Made by a program: the position numbers and the translations under genes
Source: Schizochytrium sp. TIO01
Taxonomy: Eukaryota; Sar; Bigyra; Thraustochytrida; Thraustochytriidae
Length of the DNA stretch: 64,000 nt
Direction of reading: 5' to 3'
Assembly (NCBI GenBank): GCA_004764695.1
Contig: SMSO01000032.1
Location: 3,888,983-3,952,982 of the forward strand
The notes under the pieces: model-generated
What the model was told of the DNA's origin: nothing
Databases searched by the model: none
What the model saw: only the letters and a program-made list of their open reading frames with translations
Shown here: positions 3,605 to 49,307 of the stretch, piece by piece
Numbering within the stretch: position 1 is the stretch's first letter
How the letters are laid out: every line of letters starts with the position of its first letter

Positions 3605-3634
3605 GTCATGTCATGTCATGTCATGTCATGTCAT
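3605..3634. repeat. (TCATG)n pentanucleotide microsatellite at a gene end
   Basis: Six copies of TCATG overlap the last codons and the stop of the minus-strand gene at 3621-4607. A change in copy number changes its C-terminus because the unit is not a multiple of three. Confidence 0.9.
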
Positions 3635-4607
3635 CATCATCCTCATTCTCATCATCTATTTCGTTTTCGAGGCGAAAGTTATCTTCACCATCATCTTCGT
3701 CATCATTGTCGTCGTCATCGTCTTGACCAAACTCATCATGAGCGCTACCACGGAGAGGTGCCAAAGAGACCGAAATAGAGTACGCAGATCGTTTGTGGCC
3801 AAACACAGAGAGAAAAATTACAGAAGGCACTGCAGCAGGTTGATCACTACGCGCGAGTAAAGCTTCCTGGACGATGTCTGCCTCTGTAGACACACTGATA
3901 CGCTCTTGAATATGGTTTGCAGAGATAATATCAGAATTCGCCACATGTGGCCACGGTTGACTAAATGATACATACAAGTCCGGATTGCCCCATTCGTGAG
4001 TGACCTCCACTGCTAGATGAAAACTGCGTTTGGTTTTGACACATATTTGATAAAAGTCATAATCATCTTCTTCCACTAAACCCGTCATAGTCGCATGGTT
4101 TGTAAGAACCTTTGGCATGCGTCTTGCACCACGTACATTGTCCATTTGCCCGCTATCTAGCGCCCCTCCGTGCGCGCTATCAAACGGCAGAATTAGTTCA
4201 TCGCACGTCAAAGACGAGTTACTATTTCTGTTAAAGGCGCGAGAATTCAGATGTGACTTCACGTTATCGCCTTTTCTAAATTCTACTCTATTGCTGGCGC
4301 TAGTGCTGGTGTCGCCTTCACCGCTAGCCTTGAGCAGGCCCCCGCTCCCCCCGGCTCCTCCTTCCTTCGGCACGCCTCCGTTTGCTCCTTTCGATTCCTG
4401 ACGGCTAGGGCTGCTCATCGAGGCGTTACGGACCTCTTCATGTGCTGCTGCAGCTGCTGTCTGGAACGCAGTTCCGAGGACTGCCATAGCCGTGAGCGCC
4501 ACAAGCGATAAAAGTACCATTGCCGTCGCCTTGCGCCGCCCGGACCACCCGCCCCCTTGAGGCGGGATGCGGCCCTCCTCAAGGAGCGGCGTCGCGTCCG
4601 CCATCAT
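3621..4607 (-). CDS. single-pass membrane protein, possible PPC-like beta-sandwich, acidic tail
   Basis: A 328-residue product starting MMADATPLLEEG; ATG at 4607 is chosen because the frame only opens two codons earlier without ATG. A short basic N-terminus (SGRRK) precedes one hydrophobic segment at about residues 28-50, giving a type II or signal-anchor topology. A Ser/Gly/Ala-rich stalk follows. The C-terminal half has YDFYQICVKTKRSFHLAVEV, then NPDLYVSFSQPWP and YSISVSLAP, a strand pattern like bacterial pre-peptidase C-terminal (PPC) domains; this similarity is tentative. The last 45 residues are almost all Asp/Glu, ending DDDMT inside the TCATG microsatellite. I do not recognise an orthologue. 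Function unknown; probably a secretory-pathway or surface protein. Confidence 0.75.
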   Translation of the reverse strand: MMADATPLLEEGRIPPQGGGWSGRRKATAMVLLSLVALTAMAVLGTAFQTAAAAAHEEVRNASMSSPSRQESKGANGGVPKEGGAGGSGGLLKASGEGDTSTSASNRVEFRKGDNVKSHLNSRAFNRNSNSSLTCDELILPFDSAHGGALDSGQMDNVRGARRMPKVLTNHATMTGLVEEDDYDFYQICVKTKRSFHLAVEVTHEWGNPDLYVSFSQPWPHVANSDIISANHIQERISVSTEADIVQEALLARSDQPAAVPSVIFLSVFGHKRSAYSISVSLAPLRGSAHDEFGQDDDDDNDDEDDGEDNFRLENEIDDENEDDDDMT

Positions 4608-11735: not shown

Positions 11736-13809
11736 ATGGCTTTCACCATGGAGCGCGCCCGCGACGTGGGCGTCTCGTAAGTTGAGATGGAATGGAATTG
11801 AGTTGGAGCACCAGCCAGACAAACACGGTTTTGCCCTGTTTAGGAGACCACAGTGGACTGTCGATTCCTTTGCAGTCGAGTAAGGAAATACTCATGAATT
11901 AGGGAATCATAGGCAGTGACTTGTTCAACTGGTTGCATTTAGTTTGTTGATTTTCCTGTTTGCATAACTAAAAAGCAAGATCAACATAATGCCCGTGGAA
12001 TCTTTGTGAACCTACTCCAGAGGATACGTTGCTGCAGTGCTTCAGAGGGGTTGGAAATGAACGTATTTAAGACTGACGAGAAAATGTTGTTTATTGACGA
12101 ATTAACCTGCTACCGATCTTTTGGCACATGGATGATTTTCCTGATCTTTACTATCGGGAACACTGATCAATCTGTGATGACCGGCATCAATATCTTTGCA
12201 AATGATTCCTAATATGTGGCACTATGGTATCTAATGGCGAAATATCAAACTATATGTGGGTATTTTGTTTGAATTGATGCGTACCTTGATCGCGGATTTG
12301 GACGTCTCTCTCCACATTTACGTTGGGCACAGTTTCATCAAGTTCTACTATAAGATGCTCTTTTTCATGACGGAAAACATTGGCAAGCTTTACATGGATG
12401 ACGCTACTGTGTGCATTCAAGATAAGATCTACCGTGGCCCGGAGGAGATCCAGGGCGCCTTTATTAAGCTTGGTTTCCAGGACATGCAAGTAGACATCAA
12501 GAAAGCTTCGTTTGTGCCTTCCCACAACAACAGCATCCTTATTGTGGTGTCCGGTCGCTTCACTTCGGACAAGGGTGGCCCTTCGCGTCTTATTTCCCAG
12601 TCTTTTGTTCTTGCCGAGGCCCCTCGTGGCGATGACGAAACCAGCCAGGCCTCTTTTGTTGTTCTTTCCGACGTCCTCCACTGCCTTGAGGGACCTGACT
12701 TCGGCGAGGTCGCTGCCCCTGTTGCTGAGGCCCCGAAGAAGGCCGAGGCTGAGGTCGAGCCTAAGGCTGCGGCCCCCAAGAAGTCTGAGTCCTCCAAGGA
12801 GTCCAAGGAGGTCTCTCAGGATAAGGCTGAGACCCCTAAGAAGGCTGAGGCCCCTAAGAAGGTTGAGGCCGAGCCCAAGGTTGAGGCCCCTGCCAAGGCC
12901 GACAACGAGCCTAAGGCCGCCAATGGAACTGCTGTTGCTCCGGCTGCCGAGCCTAAGGTTTCTGTCGCTGAACCCAAGAAGGAGAAGCCCGCTGCCAAGG
13001 CGGAGCCTGTCAAGGAGGAGCCTGCTGCCCCGGCTCCCCCTGCTCCTGCTGCCCCGGCTCCCCCTGCTCCTGCTGCCCCCGCCAAATCTTCTGAGACCAG
13101 TGCGCCTGCCACGCCGGCCCCATCCACTGGATTCTCTTATGCCCAAATGCTCGCAAAGCCAAAGGCCCCTGTTGCTGCTCCGGCCGCTTCTGCTGCTGCC
13201 CCGGCTGCTGCCCCGGCTGCAGCTGCTACCCCCGCTGCTCCTGCTGCTGCTCCTGCTGCCGGCGCAAAGGGCAAGGCGCCCAAGGCTGCCGCACAGGCCA
13301 ATGGTACTGCAGCTCAACAGCAACAGCAGCAACAAGGCAAGTCCCGCCGTGAGGGTGGAGCTCAGCGCAAGGCGAACTCTGCTGACCTGAGCAAGTCACT
13401 GTATGTGAAGGATATGCCGCGGGACTACAACGAGGCCAAGATTCGTGAGTGCTTTTCCCAGTTTGGCGAGGTCGTGAGCGTGGAGCTTCCGCCTGGCAAG
13501 CACTTTGCCTTTGTCAACTTTGAGTCCATTGAGGGCATGAAGAAGGCCATGGCTGCAGAGGAAATCACCATGGAGGACAGCAAGGTCTACGTGGAGGCTC
13601 GCAGCGCTACTGGTGGCAACCGTGGCGGTAACAACAACAACGCTGGAACTAGTGGCCGCAACGGTGGTCGTCGTGGCAACAACAACAACAACAACAACGG
13701 CAGCGGCAGCAACAACAACAACAACAACAAGAACTCTCGTGGAGGTGCATCAGGTCGGGGTAACCGCGGTGGTGCTCGCCAGCAGCAGCAGCAGCAGCAG
13801 AGCAAGTAA
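11736..13809 (+). CDS. G3BP-like RNA-binding protein (NTF2-like domain, RRM, Asn/Gly/Arg-rich tail)
   Basis: Two exons, 11736-11776 and 12333-13809, join in phase (TC|T, Ser) across a 556-base GTAAGT...CAG intron, giving 505 residues. The short first exon supplies the expected start of the NTF2 fold, so the product reads ERARDVGVSFIKFYYKML. Residues 1-120 are NTF2-like, as in G3BP. A long Ala/Pro/Lys/Glu-rich linker follows, with a QQQQQQQ run. An RRM at about 375-445 has RNP2 LYVKDM and RNP1 KHFAFVNF, and the C-terminus is rich in Gly/Arg/Asn and ends in poly-Gln. This is the G3BP/Rasputin architecture: cytoplasmic mRNA binding and stress-granule assembly in animals and yeast. Dimerisation through the NTF2 domain is expected, not shown. 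Long open frames on both strands over the linker are composition shadows. Confidence 0.9.
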
Positions 13810-36416: not shown

Positions 36417-39400
36417 TCACTCGAACAAGGTATACAAAGGCCGCCTTTGAGTAGTATTGGCTACAGCAAAGTTTTGGGGTCGTTGGTACCTACGATAGAT
36501 CACATGAAGGTTTGGGCTCAGAGGAGCATCTTGTAAAGATCCATTCATACGTTCAATGCATGGTTGAAGAAGCTTAAGGGGGTAGCCGGTGACAGCTTCC
36601 ATGCGTTCTTGTGAAATCGGAGCCTCCTTCAGGAAAAGTGCATAAGTAAGAGCAGCTGCGGCAACGCAAGACGGCATTTGCGGAATAAAAAAGTGTTCTT
36701 GAAGTGAGAGCTCGCACAAATATTGAGCAAGAGCTTTTGTCTCTTCGCTCACCGTCATATTTGGAAGACTTTCTTTGCCACAACGGCGGTCTTCTTCGCT
36801 TAGCACAGTGCAGTGACGATCTTCCTCGGGGTCGTATTTGATTCGTACAACAAAAACATTGAGAAAGTCGATCACTGTTGGGACAGACATGTGAAAGTCT
36901 AGGGTATTAAGAACGTCTTCCTCAAGGCGCAGGACATCTTCAGCTTGGTACACCTTATCAGCACAGACAACAAGATCCTCTACACCAATGTAGGATACGT
37001 CTTCACATTTCGACGCAACATGTAAACATGTTGCTCCTAAAAGTTGAAAGCGATTGCGCTGCACACGCTTTTGAGCGAGATACCGGTCTGTGTAGTTTAC
37101 GGCCATAAACACGCTGCGCAAAGACATATCAAATACGTCAATCACCTCAACAAGCCAGTCTACTAACATTGAGCGATGCAAAGGCTGTAGCTCGCTTTGG
37201 CTTTGCACATTACCTACCGCAGGATCCTGCCGTTCATTTAGCGTCCGGGAAAAGGGGCCGCCATGGTGATTGTCAGCAGGAACGGGAGTGGGAAAAGGAG
37301 CAGGAACAAGAGCAGGGGCTGGCAGAGCAGGGGTTGGCACTACAGTATTGTTTTGTGGGGGCAACACAGTTGTCGGAGCTGCATCTGCTGCAGCAGCTCC
37401 AAGAGTGACTACAATTGCACGTTCACGATTGAGATTGTTGACAGGCTGCCCTGCTGTGCCATTGTTTCCAGCATCAAGATTTCTACCAGCACCTTGCTGA
37501 TGAGCCAGCCCAATAGGCGTTTGATTGTCTACTACATTACCGAGCGCACCAGCTGGCGCCTGTGTTGTTGTTGTTGGCATTACAGTTCTCAAATCAAACG
37601 ATGTTGCTGAAGGTGCCCGTTCCGAATCAGCGCCAGCAAGATAATCGACCAAAGGAAACATCTGAGCTTCCAGAGCCTTCAGGTAATGGTAATAACGAAT
37701 CAAGTAATTGATATCACCAAGGCCTTGACGTCCTGCTGAAGTATGAGAAGCGAGCTCATCAATGCGAGCGGAATACTTCCAACAGGTTGACTTTGTCACT
37801 TCATCGCCGTCGTTATGCCAGCTCAGCGAGTTTAGGTCAACGCGACCAGGAAACTCATTGTCATTACCAAATTCTGCATCTAGACTCGGCGTCGCTGCAG
37901 GCGAAGAAGAAGAGGAAGAAGAGGAAGAAGAGGAAAATGACGTTGATGCTGATGAAGATGATGATGGTAGAACGGGAGTAACGCTCGACCCCTTCACTAT
38001 TTGCTGTGCCTGTTCACCTCCAACTTCAGCTTTGGAAGCTGGGCGAATTGGATCAAAATAGGCATGGCGGAGTGCATCTTCAGCGGTAATGCGAGTGTTA
38101 GGGTTCACATCAAGCATTTTTGTCATGAGGTCCACACCATCCTTATCAAGATCTGGAACATGAACTTGAAGAGAGCGACGAGGCCATCGAGGGAACTCAG
38201 TCTGGTAGTTCGGCAGGCTTGAAAATCCTGGCCAAGATGAATTTGTAGGAGTACCAAGCTTTAAAAAGATTTGGAACAGCTGGTCGATCTCGCAAATTCC
38301 AGGAAACAGAGGCTTGCCAAGGATCATTTCGGCAAAGACGCAACCCACAGACCAGACATCGACAGCAGCAAAGTAGCGACCGCCCATGAGCACTTCAGGA
38401 GAGCGGTACCAGAGGGTTACGACCTCAGTTGTGTAGTTGCGAAGCGGAATCGATGTAGAACGCACCAAAGCAAAATCTGAGATGCGAATGTGGCCTTCCT
38501 CTGCAGCTTCAAGCATACGTTCATAGACAGCAGGATCCATTGCCTTTTCAGCCCCACCAGTTTCATCTGGTTTGTTATCAAGTTCTTGGCACCTGGGTGG
38601 ACGTTGATCAGTAAGGCCGAGGATGTAAGATAAAGAGTCGCGTTCTTCACGAACAGACACACACCGGCGTGAAGAGTTTGCAACGCGGGGAATGTCAACA
38701 AGCAAATGCTTCGGCTTGAGGTTACGATGCAAAACGCCACGTTGGTGGCAAAACGCTACACCCTGAAGAATCTGGTATAAAAATCGACGAATCAAAGTGG
38801 GGGGTAGCGGTTTACCTCCATCAGCATCGTTGTTTGGGTTAATTAAATCAAACAAAGACTTTTCCATGTAGCCAAAGAACAAAAACAGCTTATTGTCAAC
38901 AAGAGAGATGCGCTCCACCGTGGCAATATGAGGATGCCGTAGGCCTTGCAAAAATGCAAGCTCGCGAAGCATATAGTAAGGCACACCTTCGCCGGTTGGG
39001 TAAACACGTGCACGTTTCATAGCAAACAGTCGGCCGGACCGGCGGTGAAGAACTTTATAGCAACTACCTTCCGTACCTTGGTTCTTTAATCCAAGGTATT
39101 GAAACGAAGCATTTCTAATGGCGCCACTGGGATGGAAAGTAGGAAATCTACGCCACAGGCGAGAACTAGTGCAGAGCTGATTCCACAATTTAGATGCCGC
39201 CCACAGTCCCTCGATGGAACCTTCTTCGCCGAAGACGAGAAACGAGACGATTTCCATTTTAATATCTTCGAGAAGATCATCAATCCTAATTTTTCTACGC
39301 CGCGCTTTTGCTTCATCATTCTCCCTCCGCCTGCGTTTCTCATCGAGTTCATCGTCAAGATCCAATTTTGACGGTGTCTCAATCATTTTGCGTTTATGAG

Positions 39401-39509
39401 TCATTGGGCTCGAAAAAGAGTCAGCAACAACCCGTGTGGGCTTCGGTGGATTTGTTTGCATGGGCTGGTTGCGTGGTGAAGCAGATCCATCGCCACAACC
39501 ACTATCCAT
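36417..39509 (-). CDS. F-box-like / CDK-like (pseudo)kinase / cyclin fusion protein
   Basis: A 1030-residue single-exon protein joining three cell-cycle modules. Residues 75-124 resemble an F-box (IDDLLEDIKMEIVSFLVFG, then LWNQLCTSSRLWRRF). Residues about 138-490 are a CDK-family kinase: FAMKRARV with Lys165, a PSTAIRE-position helix GVPYYMLRE with Glu183, TTEVVTLWYRSPEVLMGG, DVWSVGCVFAEMILGKPLFP and LDVNPNTRITAEDALRH. The catalytic loop reads HRNLKPKH (Asn263 for the catalytic Asp, His268 for the metal-binding Asn) and DFG is DFA (345-347). About 64 extra residues separate them. A linker with poly-Ser and Ala/Pro runs (about 500-770) leads to a two-fold cyclin: HRSMLVDWLVEVIDVFD (Met781), YTDRYLAQKRV, ASKCEDVSYIGVEDL, then SLQEHFFIPQMPSCVAAAAL. 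It should act as a preassembled, possibly non-catalytic, CDK-cyclin unit tied to SCF; this is inference. Confidence 0.93.
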   Translation of the reverse strand: MDSGCGDGSASPRNQPMQTNPPKPTRVVADSFSSPMTHKRKMIETPSKLDLDDELDEKRRRRENDEAKARRRKIRIDDLLEDIKMEIVSFLVFGEEGSIEGLWAASKLWNQLCTSSRLWRRFPTFHPSGAIRNASFQYLGLKNQGTEGSCYKVLHRRSGRLFAMKRARVYPTGEGVPYYMLRELAFLQGLRHPHIATVERISLVDNKLFLFFGYMEKSLFDLINPNNDADGGKPLPPTLIRRFLYQILQGVAFCHQRGVLHRNLKPKHLLVDIPRVANSSRRCVSVREERDSLSYILGLTDQRPPRCQELDNKPDETGGAEKAMDPAVYERMLEAAEEGHIRISDFALVRSTSIPLRNYTTEVVTLWYRSPEVLMGGRYFAAVDVWSVGCVFAEMILGKPLFPGICEIDQLFQIFLKLGTPTNSSWPGFSSLPNYQTEFPRWPRRSLQVHVPDLDKDGVDLMTKMLDVNPNTRITAEDALRHAYFDPIRPASKAEVGGEQAQQIVKGSSVTPVLPSSSSSASTSFSSSSSSSSSSSPAATPSLDAEFGNDNEFPGRVDLNSLSWHNDGDEVTKSTCWKYSARIDELASHTSAGRQGLGDINYLIRYYHYLKALEAQMFPLVDYLAGADSERAPSATSFDLRTVMPTTTTQAPAGALGNVVDNQTPIGLAHQQGAGRNLDAGNNGTAGQPVNNLNRERAIVVTLGAAAADAAPTTVLPPQNNTVVPTPALPAPALVPAPFPTPVPADNHHGGPFSRTLNERQDPAVGNVQSQSELQPLHRSMLVDWLVEVIDVFDMSLRSVFMAVNYTDRYLAQKRVQRNRFQLLGATCLHVASKCEDVSYIGVEDLVVCADKVYQAEDVLRLEEDVLNTLDFHMSVPTVIDFLNVFVVRIKYDPEEDRHCTVLSEEDRRCGKESLPNMTVSEETKALAQYLCELSLQEHFFIPQMPSCVAAAALTYALFLKEAPISQERMEAVTGYPLKLLQPCIERMNGSLQDAPLSPNLHVIYRRYQRPQNFAVANTTQRRPLYTLFE

Positions 39510-45401: not shown

Positions 45402-46625
45402 ATGTCCACAATCGATGGTCAACGGTCCATGGCTACAGCACTGGCAGCAACAACAGGCGCACTGAAAGACAGAGATCTAGGGGCGTATCCGATATCTAAA
45501 TATACAAGCTCCTTAAGATCATCTGCTTCATCACACGCGATAAGCTCCTATTCAAGCTCGGATGTTCGTGCGCAATGCACCGATGGCGTCCAACGATGGA
45601 ATCTACGTGACTTTGAGATTGGCAAAGCATTAGGTAGAGGAAAGTATGGAATCGTCTATCGGGCCAAAGTCAAACGTACCAAACAAATTGTTGCTTTGAA
45701 AGTACTAGATAAGGAACAGCTTCAGCGCGACGATATGTATTCGCAGCTAAGGCAAGAAGTTGAGATTCACTCCAGGCTAAAACATCCAAACATACTTCAG
45801 CTGTTTGGCTATTTTTATGATCCTAAACGGGTCTATCTTATCCTAGAGTATGCTGCAGGAGGAGAACTCTATAAAATTATGAAGAAACAACCAGACGGCA
45901 AGTTCGATGAGAAAACAGCAGCACACTACATAGCGCAGCTCGCCAGTGCTCTGAGTTATTGCCATAGTTTTAACGTAATCCATCGCGACGTAAAACCTGA
46001 GAACCTTTTGATTTCACAGGATGGCTTGCTGAAGCTTGCCGATTTTGGTTGGGCTGCGCATGACCGCCGCGGATACAATGGATACATGAGTACAGCTAGA
46101 TTGCATGTACGGGGAGGGATTAGCGCATGTCCTGAAGAGAATGACCGCATGGCAAGCATAAATCATGGAAATCGCCGTACAACGATGTGTGGTACGCTAG
46201 ATTATCTTGCACCTGAGATGGTACATGGAAAAGCATATGATGAGACTGTGGACAACTGGACAGTAGGCGTTTTGGCTTACGAGCTTTTGGTCGGTGTACC
46301 TCCCTTCGAACCTTCACCTGCAGATGAGATGGCAAGTGCTGGAGCCATGGCAGGGACCCCGTACAGTCATCTGAATACACCAGTTGGAGGAAGTGCGCAT
46401 TACAGTGGACTCCTTGCTACACCACAGAGTTGTGTTTCAGATAACAATGAAGCAACCTTCCGCAAAATTAGCTCTCTTGACTACCGCTTTCCAAGTCATG
46501 TAAGTCCGGAGGCAAAAGATATGATTCGTCGCCTTTTACACAAGCATGCAGAACGCAGACTTAGCCTTTTCGAGGTGCTGCGTCATCCATGGATTCAACG
46601 GCACATTGAACTTCCCGAAGCATGA
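45402..46625 (+). CDS. Aurora-family serine/threonine kinase with two insertions
   Basis: A 407-residue mitotic kinase. After a Ser/Thr-rich N-terminus of about 67 residues, the kinase begins RWNLRDFEIGKALGRGKYG. Catalytic residues are intact: VALKVL (about Lys99), HRDVKPENLL (about 193), DFGWAAH (about 214), and the Aurora activation signature RRTTMCGTLDYLAPEMVHG. LILEYAAGGELYKIMKK and the final VLRHPWIQRHIEL are also typical. Two insertions break the usual pattern: about 33 extra residues between DFGWA and RRTT (46060-46170), and about 43 extra between VPPFEP and RKISSLDYRFP (46310-46465), the latter rich in Ser/Pro/Ala. Neither has GT-AG borders, so I treat them as coding. The single Aurora would serve spindle and cytokinesis functions; partner binding (INCENP/TPX2) is untested. 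Confidence 0.92.
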   Translation: MSTIDGQRSMATALAATTGALKDRDLGAYPISKYTSSLRSSASSHAISSYSSSDVRAQCTDGVQRWNLRDFEIGKALGRGKYGIVYRAKVKRTKQIVALKVLDKEQLQRDDMYSQLRQEVEIHSRLKHPNILQLFGYFYDPKRVYLILEYAAGGELYKIMKKQPDGKFDEKTAAHYIAQLASALSYCHSFNVIHRDVKPENLLISQDGLLKLADFGWAAHDRRGYNGYMSTARLHVRGGISACPEENDRMASINHGNRRTTMCGTLDYLAPEMVHGKAYDETVDNWTVGVLAYELLVGVPPFEPSPADEMASAGAMAGTPYSHLNTPVGGSAHYSGLLATPQSCVSDNNEATFRKISSLDYRFPSHVSPEAKDMIRRLLHKHAERRLSLFEVLRHPWIQRHIELPEA

Positions 46626-46853: not shown

Positions 46854-49307
46854 TTATTTCATTTTATAGTACTTGTTTGTTTTCGGGCAGAAATAGCATT
46901 CGAGAATAGGATCGAAAACGAGATCAAGTTCTCCTCCGGCTTCATCTCCATTCTCGCATCCTTCATTCGCTTCACTCACTTTTGAAGAGGCACTTCGACT
47001 GCTGCTTTTCTTCTTGATTACAGGTTCTTTGCTTTCCTCTTCCACGTCATCATCACCACGAATTGGTGTTGCAAGATGATCCCCGTCTTGGTTCTTTACC
47101 TCAGCTGTGGAGCTTAGTTGCTTAAGCGCCCCAGAAATTGTCGACTTTAGAAATTGGGCGCTTAATTCATCAATAGGGTTTTGTGCATTTGTGTCTGATT
47201 TTACTTTTGATGAAGACTTGGAGGTCGAGGTTGGAGTAGCACGACTAGCGGAAGAACGATGTGAGCTCAGAACGGCCTCCTCCTCCTCGTCAAGACGTGC
47301 TTCCATTTTTGCAAGTTCCTCGCGCTCTCGCGCTAGCTTAACACGGAGATCGCTTTTGATCGGCGAGTCTAATGTTCCAGACAACTCAGCAAGGTCACCA
47401 CCATCCAACTCAAAGTCAGCTTCAGCAGGTTCTCCAAGTGAAATTTCATCATCCTCATCCAAGACATCTCCCTCTCTGTCAGCTAGTGCTTCATGACCTT
47501 CTCTTACGTCATGGTCCAGCTCATCTTCGTCTTGTGTGAGATTGAGATCCTCGTTGTACACTTCACTTCGTTCGAAACTTGTGTTACTCGCAATTTGCTG
47601 TTCGCCATCGTTCTCAGCATAAATCCCGTCGTCATCATTGACGTTAACGTTACTGTCATCATCGCTAAGTTCACTGTAGTTATCATCTTGCTGGTTAGCT
47701 GCTGGGAGTCCCTCATACAAGTGTCTTTGATTATGTAGGAAGGTAGATTCTTCCTCCTCTTCTTCTCTCCCCTCTCCCTCGTTCTCCGACTGAGTATCAT
47801 GATTGTCGTGAATATCAACATAGCCAGAAGAAGTAGTTGGGTAATTTTTATGGCTTTCTCCAGGATGTTGACTTTGAAATTCCTTGCCCACCGGTGAAAG
47901 CGGGGAGTTCGCAACGTATTCCTCATAGACATGTTCAGCTTCGCATTGCACTTGGTCGCACGTCTTCTTCTGACGAAGCGTGGAGCGTGAAGAGCTCATG
48001 CTTGCCCTGGCACTAATCGGTTCATTCTCTTGATTAGATGAGCGCGGACCTGCAGAGGACTTTTGCGAGTGCATGCTTCGGGAACTAGGTTGCCCACTTG
48101 ATGGCCTTTCCTCACGTATTGGTAACTTCAAGGATAACTTACGAGGGGATGGTGTACCTCCTTTTGCAGCCTTAGCCCGCGCGATGGCAGGCAAACTTCC
48201 AATGCGGAGACCTGAACGGCGTGCAGACGGTGGTCCATCCTCCTCTACGCGGCCAAAGTTCGATGCATTATCCTCCTCATCTGTAGACGCGCCTCTTAAG
48301 CGCCTGACACTAGTTGGCGTGGCAGATGCTTGCTTGGGGGTACCTGAAGATAAAGGTGTGTTCGTTTGAGGTACAGAGCCGTGCTGATTATTTCCACGTC
48401 GAGTCTCCAAAAGCCGTCTTGTGCGTGGGCTTTCAGTAGACATCCTAGTTCCCAGCGTAGAGTTACTTCGCGCCGACGCTGGAGGTCCAGCCGGTGACGG
48501 TCTCGATCGCAGAAGCTTTTTCGCTTGTGTTCTAGTTTGCGACATCTCACTCCGAGGCGAGTGATGTTCAACTCCATGTACGCTCTCCCAGGCGTAGACG
48601 GCGGTCATTGTGAAGAAAACCGTTGGTGGGTTCACGACAATTGTACTCGGAAATTGAAGCTGTCGCGGAATTGGTGCAAGTATGCGACTCCCACTCTCGA
48701 TACCATGCATTCCTGGTGGTTGGTCCTTCAACGTGAACAGTCGACGAGCTCGGCAAGTGCCATGCAAAACGATCTGCTCAAGGGCTCTGAAGTTGATACT
48801 TGGAAAATTAGAAGATACTATCTCTTGCATGTCCATGCAAAGCGTAAGCCAGCTGCCACGCGGAACTACTGTGTCATCGCGCAAGTCTTCGCTCTCGCCA
48901 AATTGTGCGTCGTAAACTGCTCCCAGCGGTAGCTGCACGTGCAAAGGGTGCGCCGTGATATTCCGAAATGCGGAGGAAATCACAAGGCGACGTCGTGTTC
49001 GTTGTGAGTCTGTGATAGTTAGCTCGATGCCGAAAGGATCTGCAGATGCTGGAAGAGCTATTTGCATGGCCAAAAATCTCTGTGTGAGTCCAAGGCTCTT
49101 TCGAGTGGCGGTTTTGCCTGGAAATTCAACTTTGCAGGTGGGGCCTCCATCGCAGACCAGAGCGTAGCTTTTAATATCCTTGTCAAATTCTCTACGAACT
49201 CTCCCACTCACGCCAACACCTTGTTTCCGAAGAGGGTCAGTGCCCTGTGCAGAGAAGATTTCGCACGAAGGCCCTCCTTGAAACCGCGAGGCTCCTGCGG
49301 TGCTCAT
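46854..49307 (-). CDS. CFAP20 domain-containing protein (CFAP20DC-like), cilium-associated
   Basis: An 817-residue single-exon protein. Residues 1-205 form a CFA20-type domain: RREFDKDIKSYALVCDG, SLGLTQRFLAMQIALP, FGIELTITDSQRTRRRLVIS, AHPLHVQLPLGAV, then LEQIVLHGTCRARRLFTLK, closely following the order in animal CFAP20DC (C3orf67). CFAP20 itself is an inner-junction protein of doublet microtubules; the DC relatives are less well understood. Residues about 260-480 are Ser/Arg/Pro-rich and disordered, and 500-680 strongly Asp/Glu-rich, with a coiled coil (KLAREREELAKMEARLDEEE). The extreme C-terminus LVFDPILECYFCPKTNKYY also resembles the end of CFAP20DC proteins. It implies a flagellated life stage. 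ATG at 49307. Confidence 0.8.
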   Translation of the reverse strand: MSTAGASRFQGGPSCEIFSAQGTDPLRKQGVGVSGRVRREFDKDIKSYALVCDGGPTCKVEFPGKTATRKSLGLTQRFLAMQIALPASADPFGIELTITDSQRTRRRLVISSAFRNITAHPLHVQLPLGAVYDAQFGESEDLRDDTVVPRGSWLTLCMDMQEIVSSNFPSINFRALEQIVLHGTCRARRLFTLKDQPPGMHGIESGSRILAPIPRQLQFPSTIVVNPPTVFFTMTAVYAWESVHGVEHHSPRSEMSQTRTQAKKLLRSRPSPAGPPASARSNSTLGTRMSTESPRTRRLLETRRGNNQHGSVPQTNTPLSSGTPKQASATPTSVRRLRGASTDEEDNASNFGRVEEDGPPSARRSGLRIGSLPAIARAKAAKGGTPSPRKLSLKLPIREERPSSGQPSSRSMHSQKSSAGPRSSNQENEPISARASMSSSRSTLRQKKTCDQVQCEAEHVYEEYVANSPLSPVGKEFQSQHPGESHKNYPTTSSGYVDIHDNHDTQSENEGEGREEEEEESTFLHNQRHLYEGLPAANQQDDNYSELSDDDSNVNVNDDDGIYAENDGEQQIASNTSFERSEVYNEDLNLTQDEDELDHDVREGHEALADREGDVLDEDDEISLGEPAEADFELDGGDLAELSGTLDSPIKSDLRVKLAREREELAKMEARLDEEEEAVLSSHRSSASRATPTSTSKSSSKVKSDTNAQNPIDELSAQFLKSTISGALKQLSSTAEVKNQDGDHLATPIRGDDDVEEESKEPVIKKKSSSRSASSKVSEANEGCENGDEAGGELDLVFDPILECYFCPKTNKYYKMK

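Follow-up and report, generated by a model that had tools for sequence, protein, structure and literature searches.

What role can be played by a protein that joins an F-box-like segment, a cyclin-dependent kinase (CDK) and a complete cyclin in one chain? The question is raised by a gene in a 64,000-nucleotide stretch of the genome of Schizochytrium sp. TIO01 (GenBank assembly GCA_004764695.1, contig SMSO01000032.1, positions 3,888,983 to 3,952,982 of the forward strand), which is called the window below. The gene lies on the minus strand at 36417..39509. A first-pass annotation, made from the letters of the DNA, had described an uninterrupted frame of 1030 codons at this place. The description is exact: the frame runs from ATG to stop, and the landmarks that had been named in its product (K165, E183, WYRSPE, DVWSVGCV, M781 of MLVDWL and ASKCED at 832) are all correct. 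Unmentioned in that annotation was the loss of catalytic residues from the kinase, which is the main point of the present analysis.

Integrity of the fusion gene

The CDK and both cyclin boxes are borne out by the Pfam search of the full protein, in which Pkinase (166.7 bits, 8.9e-49), Cyclin_N (111.1 bits, 3.9e-32) and Cyclin_C (59.3 bits, 4.7e-16) score well above their cut-offs. No leucine-rich repeat family was found among the Pfam matches of the protein at E up to 1. A chain of such composition could also arise from an assembly misjoin, or from two genes read as one. The frame contains no stop, and in the search of the whole genome (64.06 Mb in 37 contigs) the full protein matches a single place, on a 9.04-Mb contig, where the open frame has 1033 codons. 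With codon statistics derived from eight other frames in the window, the fusion frame ranked above the other five frames in 10 of 10 segments, the linker and the kinase insert included; the closest rival was a reverse frame of the F-box segment, with 0.12 versus 0.13. Since the codon use is coding-like in all ten segments, it is unlikely that a non-coding linker is read through by chance. In Phytophthora infestans, the same kinase-cyclin order in one gene was confirmed by reverse-transcription PCR (Judelson and Ah-Fong 2010, PMC3019232). A misjoin is thus very improbable. The first-pass annotation had seen the fusion as endangered by a sub-threshold F-box coming together with a misjoin between the kinase and cyclin halves; the F-box score does lie below threshold, but no sign of a misjoin was found.

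Loss of catalytic residues from the kinase domain

The catalytic loop of the fusion kinase reads VLHRNLKPKHLL, at a position where the genome's own CDKs (loci L020-L022) carry HRDLKPQNLL. The HRD motif is changed to HRN263, and the Mg-binding Asn of the loop is replaced by His268. Further changes are found in the DFG motif, which reads DFA and retains its Asp as D345, in the Gly loop, where Asn143 stands in place of the first Gly, and at CDK Tyr15, the target of Wee1, which is Glu147 in the fusion. The beta3 Lys K165, the alphaC Glu E183 and the T-loop Thr T360 are retained, as are three T-loop-related Arg, which we take to be the residues holding the phosphorylated T-loop; these residues and D345 fall in invariant columns of an alignment of three sequences. 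The position of the PSTAIRE helix is occupied by PYYMLRE. With other residues in place of the catalytic Asp and the Mg-binding Asn, the kinase is very probably catalytically dead; as the Lys, the Glu, the DFG Asp and the T-loop residues are retained, it nevertheless seems to have preserved the shape that a CDK has when active and bound to a cyclin. A scaffold selected for docking would be expected to look like this.

Among the kinases read in this genome, the altered loop stands alone. Of 50 genome matches of the full protein, 30 were assigned a locus, and the motif was readable in 25 rows including the fusion gene; the remaining 24 rows, representing 20 other kinase places, all show HRD. No catalytic-loop motif was obtained from five of the 30 loci, two of which are cyclins. 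The pattern HRNLKP occurs at eight places in the genome, against two for a control pattern: one is the fusion gene, four fall within a single tandem repeat, and the other three sit in short frames (67-151 codons) without a kinase-like look by eye. The closest solved chains of the kinase are CDK1, CDK3 and CDK2 (best E 2.8e-78, among the best 60 of 1555 matches). In a tree of 21 kinases, the fusion kinase falls into a five-row clade with human CDK1, human CDK3, L020 and L021 (support 95/95), and by this tree it belongs to the CDK1/2 group.

The presence of the Lys, alphaC Glu, DFG Asp and T-loop Thr, together with a cyclin in the same chain, speaks for a self-activated kinase with an altered catalytic loop (HRN, and His for Asn), and activity is reported for some predicted pseudokinases (VRK3). 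Such an active kinase is nevertheless improbable in view of the two replaced catalytic-loop residues, to which DFA and the damaged Gly loop are added, and of a branch of 1.31 in the tree, compared with 0.24-0.37 for the other four members of the clade. The first-pass annotation had proposed that scaffold, activator and ubiquitin ligase are coupled in one chain. The order of F-box-like segment, CDK and cyclin stands, and SKP1 and cullin genes exist in the genome; the idea of an active kinase that comes pre-assembled with its activator is unsupported, because neither the catalytic Asp nor the Mg-binding Asn is retained.

The catalytic loop is followed by a 64-amino-acid insert (approximately residues 273-336). 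It holds in-frame GT and AG dinucleotides, and an intron with a length divisible by three is conceivable. An unspliced in-frame intron is less likely, and the insert is preferably read as coding sequence, because the candidate 5' sites look poor on inspection by eye, the codon use is coding-like, and four of the five cullin matches of this genome lie in single frames of nearly full length. The reading of the kinase as dead is independent of the insert, since this lies after HRN and H268.

Cyclin part and CKS-facing surface

The nearest solved chain of the cyclin part is cyclin A2 (1.4e-28), followed by cyclin F (2.8e-18), D1, B1 and E1. With both boxes over the cut-off and cyclin A as the best solved chain, the cyclin part is assigned an A-type cyclin fold. 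It retains K834 and E863, presumably at the positions of the Lys and the Glu that contact the CDK. Also retained, as W785, is the Trp of the RxL site, at the heart of which W217 is found in cyclin A (PMC6170502). The patch of the fusion cyclin starts with HRSML, versus MRAIL in cyclin A and MRYIL in cyclin F, and because of this difference RxL binding by the fusion cyclin may be weakened, which speaks against a function in substrate capture.

Six CDK2 residues are named as CKS contacts in PMC10318019 (F213, F240, E208, L175, D235 and K237). In CDK2 numbering and by our own matching, three of the six (F213, F240 and E208) are retained in the fusion protein, while L175 is changed to Met, D235 to Asn and K237 to Gln. 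The genome's CDK1-like kinase L021 likewise has Gln at CDK2 position 237.

The fusion appears to be single in the genome. Eighteen Cyclin_N matches were found, and a kinase motif lies nearby in the fusion gene only, as read in regions of 3.2-3.4 kb, which a kinase beyond a longer linker could escape. No other kinase match from the full-protein search of the genome lies within 25 kb of any Cyclin_N match.

The F-box-like segment

The F-box-like block that the first-pass annotation had seen at residues 75-124 exceeds chance when it is compared with the F-boxes of its own genome, but it misses the Pfam cut-offs. For the comparison, profiles were built from own-genome F-boxes, with 14 segments for HMMER and ten members for hhalign. 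Using hhalign, residues 1-140 score 31.3 (P 2.8e-5) and the full-length protein 32.4 (probability 39), whereas the cyclin end and a Pex16 protein give a probability of 0.1. The segment was reached by none of 1500 shuffles and by none of 495 open-frame tiles; the best control scored 20.5. These tiles of 100-140 amino acids were taken from other open frames of at least 200 codons in the window and the fetched loci, F-box loci excluded, and some of them are probably antisense. In the leave-one-out test the ten profile members score from 21.7 to 50.0, the accepted F-boxes L052 and L071 lying below the fusion segment, and four own F-boxes outside the profile score from 18.9 to 33.0. Since these scores bracket that of the segment, it lies inside the range of the genome's own F-box family, in its lower half. 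Only two Pfam families match a 72-amino-acid fragment at E up to 10, and both are F-box models. In the single-sequence structure model, the segment has three helices, of which the third is short and the other two are long, as would be expected of an F-box, at low confidence (predicted local distance difference test, pLDDT, 65).

Several results weigh against an F-box. The Pfam model F-box-like reaches 11.9 bits on the whole protein and 12.3 bits on the 72-amino-acid fragment, compared with a cut-off of 24.3, and the model F-box reaches 14.0 bits on the fragment (E 0.049), compared with 20.5. A phmmer search of the fragment against the PDB found no F-box chain. With the HMMER profile of own F-boxes, one of 5000 shuffles of residues 1-140 scored higher (11.9 vs 9.2 bits), and the full-length protein obtained 6.0 bits. 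Eight of the ten accepted own F-boxes outscore the fusion segment in the leave-one-out test. Among 22 structure chains aligned to the model of the segment there was no F-box chain, the model being too weak to decide either way, and the model of the full-length protein (pLDDT 36) is useless.

The Pfam scores of 11.9-14.0 bits, the higher-scoring shuffle in HMMER and the weak model without a matching F-box structure would suit an ordinary CDK-cyclin fusion of the known family, the N-terminal helices of which resemble an F-box by chance. This explanation is rather unlikely given the hhalign controls (0/1500 and 0/495), the lower leave-one-out scores of L052 and L071 and the fact that the fragment matches F-box models exclusively. 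The segment at residues 75-124 is probably an F-box.

Proposed function of the fusion protein

Potential partners of an F-box protein are encoded in the genome. SKP1 has three matches (L060-L062, C33:1653784-1659087) within about 5.3 kb; in this local cluster one match is strong (100 bits) and two are weaker (37.5 and 33 bits). Five cullin matches were found, and four of them cover almost the full length of the model, each within one frame of 760-833 codons. The two CKS matches are adjacent, have one frame size and are likely to represent one gene.

Because the probable F-box adjoins a probably dead CDK that seems to keep its cyclin-bound geometry, with a cyclin on the same chain, we tentatively propose a substrate receptor of the SKP1-cullin-F-box (SCF) ligase with a CDK-cyclin body for substrate binding. 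By analogy, the protein would be akin to cyclin F or to a single-chain SKP2-CKS1-CDK2-cyclin A, two precedents for such a use of the parts, and the dead CDK would serve as the structural partner of the cyclin. A single gene would give rise to a single chain, in which the F-box is followed about 12 residues further on by the dead CDK1/2-type domain, a flexible linker and the A-type cyclin. The cyclin would fold back in cis onto its own pseudo-CDK, forming a CDK-cyclin body without phosphorylation, and the F-box would link this body to SKP1-CUL1. For substrate capture the protein would rely on the RxL-type patch of the cyclin and perhaps also on CKS1, which would sit on the CDK C-lobe and hold phosphorylated substrate sites. 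As the outcome, cell-cycle proteins would be marked for destruction. It appears doubtful whether the protein acts as a decoy cyclin-CDK, that is, as a new SCF receptor in the form of a one-chain complex without catalysis, by which the substrates and inhibitors of the real complex are sent to destruction.

A pseudokinase regulator without a role in a ligase would compete for, sequester or allosterically tune the real CDKs, cyclins, CKS1 or CDK inhibitors, and its F-box-like helices would merely serve to dock another partner or to control the turnover of the protein itself. The HER2-HER3 pair, to which such a regulator would be comparable, is given as a pseudokinase precedent elsewhere in PMC3019232. 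The retained cyclin-binding and T-loop residues, the sub-threshold Pfam score of the F-box and the predicted inactivity of the P. infestans relatives, for which the main text of the same paper mentions no F-box, agree with this explanation. The similarity of the segment to F-boxes, however, exceeds the shuffle and open-frame controls and falls within the range of own F-boxes, and we consider a regulator of this kind unlikely on balance. In the case of the SCF receptor, the F-box on the fusion suggests a concrete role, that of a ligase receptor instead of a kinase. If this is true, a CDK-cyclin body could be put to new use solely for recognizing substrates, and the Asp-to-Asn exchange shared by oomycetes, ciliates and Theileria would be explained by selection for a docking surface without catalysis.

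Features of the fusion gene, the window and the genome

Table 1. Positions in the window of the fusion gene and of the parts of its product
Feature	Position	Strand	Evidence
Whole fusion gene, one open frame, 1030 aa (amino acids)	36417..39509	-	frame, Pfam, genome match, codon statistics
aa 1-74, low-complexity N-terminus	39288..39509	-	sequence
aa 75-124, F-box-like segment (IDDLLEDIKMEIVSFL...ASKLWNQLCTSSRLWRRF)	39138..39287	-	sub-cut-off Pfam, own-genome F-box profiles and controls, low-confidence model
aa 133-272, CDK N-lobe and catalytic loop	38694..39113	-	structure-chain matches, alignment, motif reading
aa 273-336, insert between catalytic loop and DFG, coding-like	38502..38693	-	alignment, codon statistics
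aa 337-488, CDK C-lobe: DFA, T-loop T360, WYRSPE, CKS-facing surface partly kept	38046..38501	-	Pfam, alignment
aa 489-757, Ser/Pro/Ala-rich linker	37239..38045	-	sequence, codon statistics, low-confidence model
aa 758-1030, both cyclin boxes, cyclin A-like (Cyclin_N 761-875, Cyclin_C 921-1020)	36417..37238	-	Pfam, structure-chain matches

The N-terminus contains one full CDK consensus site, T45-P-S-K, and a basic stretch at residues 57-75 that resembles a nuclear localization signal. A poly-Ser tract is located early in the linker (37695-38045, minus strand, residues 489-605), and a helical stretch at about residues 578-624, after the tract, was predicted with low confidence.

Four other frames of the window are of note. 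A second protein kinase (Pkinase 3e-69) is encoded at 45402-46625 on the plus strand, about 6 kb upstream of the fusion gene. The 817-amino-acid frame at 46854-49307 (minus strand) has an N-terminal CFA20 domain (3.4e-21), a domain of ciliary type, and a long C-terminal extension. At 12277-13809 (plus strand) lies a gene for a protein with NTF2 followed by RRM, the domain order of G3BP. The 328-amino-acid frame at 3621-4607 (minus strand) shows a weak, sub-cut-off match to a bacterial pre-peptidase C-terminal domain (0.00091), which is odd for a eukaryote.

Elsewhere in the genome, locus L089 (C34:3143800-3144400) is an 81-base tandem repeat that, in an open frame, codes for RSHRNLKPHHFDLEPHQRLAHR-like units. 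Contig C4 carries a PfaA-type polyunsaturated fatty acid synthase (1157.4 bits, neighbours in frame included, with a cut-off of 1010.1 that none of 14 control genomes exceeded) and, about 14 kb away on the opposite strand, another gene to which this model also matches. Such an arrangement is a mark of thraustochytrids, which are stramenopiles. Neither of two TPI loci has the GAPDH motif SCTTN of a fused TPI-GAPDH within about 1.5 kb on either side, a result that is uninformative alone.

Comparison with known systems

CDK-cyclin hybrids in stramenopiles, which the first-pass annotation had mentioned as known, though not with an F-box, do exist. P. infestans has four CDKs, PITG_21617 among them, that carry cyclin domains at the C-terminal end (PMC3019232). 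In all four the Asp of HRD in subdomain VIb is replaced by Asn, and inactivity was suggested; relatives with the same exchange are listed there from P. ramorum, P. sojae, H. arabidopsidis, Paramecium, Tetrahymena and Theileria. The sole role suggested for the cyclin part is that it may regulate stability. A CDK-cyclin fusion with a probably dead kinase has therefore been known since 2010. The TIO01 protein agrees with these fusions in the order of CDK, Cyclin_N and Cyclin_C in one chain and in the Asn of HRN263. It differs in the probable F-box, a term with no occurrence in the main text of that paper, in gene number, with one fusion among 18 cyclin loci compared with four fusions in P. infestans, and in the helix PYYMLRE, compared with PSTAIRE in PITG_21617. 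The DFA motif, the Asn-to-His exchange and the 64-amino-acid insert are seen in TIO01 and are not known from the P. infestans genes.

No fusion of F-box, CDK and cyclin was found in the open-access literature at the level of titles and abstracts, one query being poorly targeted. As far as these searches reach, the F-box on a CDK-cyclin fusion and the presence of such a fusion in a thraustochytrid are new. Scans of viral contigs gave no confirmed homologue, and of 68 stretches from prokaryote contigs one was confirmed, a 36% match in a bacterium that is not a usable relative.

Cyclin F (FBXO1) also carries an F-box and cyclin boxes in one chain, a substrate patch is likely in the fusion cyclin too, and among solved chains cyclin F is the second-best match to it after cyclin A. 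We know of no kinase domain in cyclin F, whereas Pkinase (8.9e-49) is present in the fusion. Cyclin F catches RxL substrates by its cyclin patch, which reads MRYIL where the fusion reads HRSML, and binds no CDK (PMC5666078, PMC4738361). The solved assembly of SKP1-SKP2-CKS1 with CDK2-cyclin A and p27 (PMC10318019) resembles the proposed receptor in that an F-box protein, a CDK and a cyclin are joined with SKP1 and that CKS1 sits on the CDK C-lobe. That assembly consists of separate chains with an active CDK and leucine-rich repeats, whereas in Schizochytrium sp. TIO01 the F-box-like segment, a very probably dead CDK and the cyclin are united in one chain.

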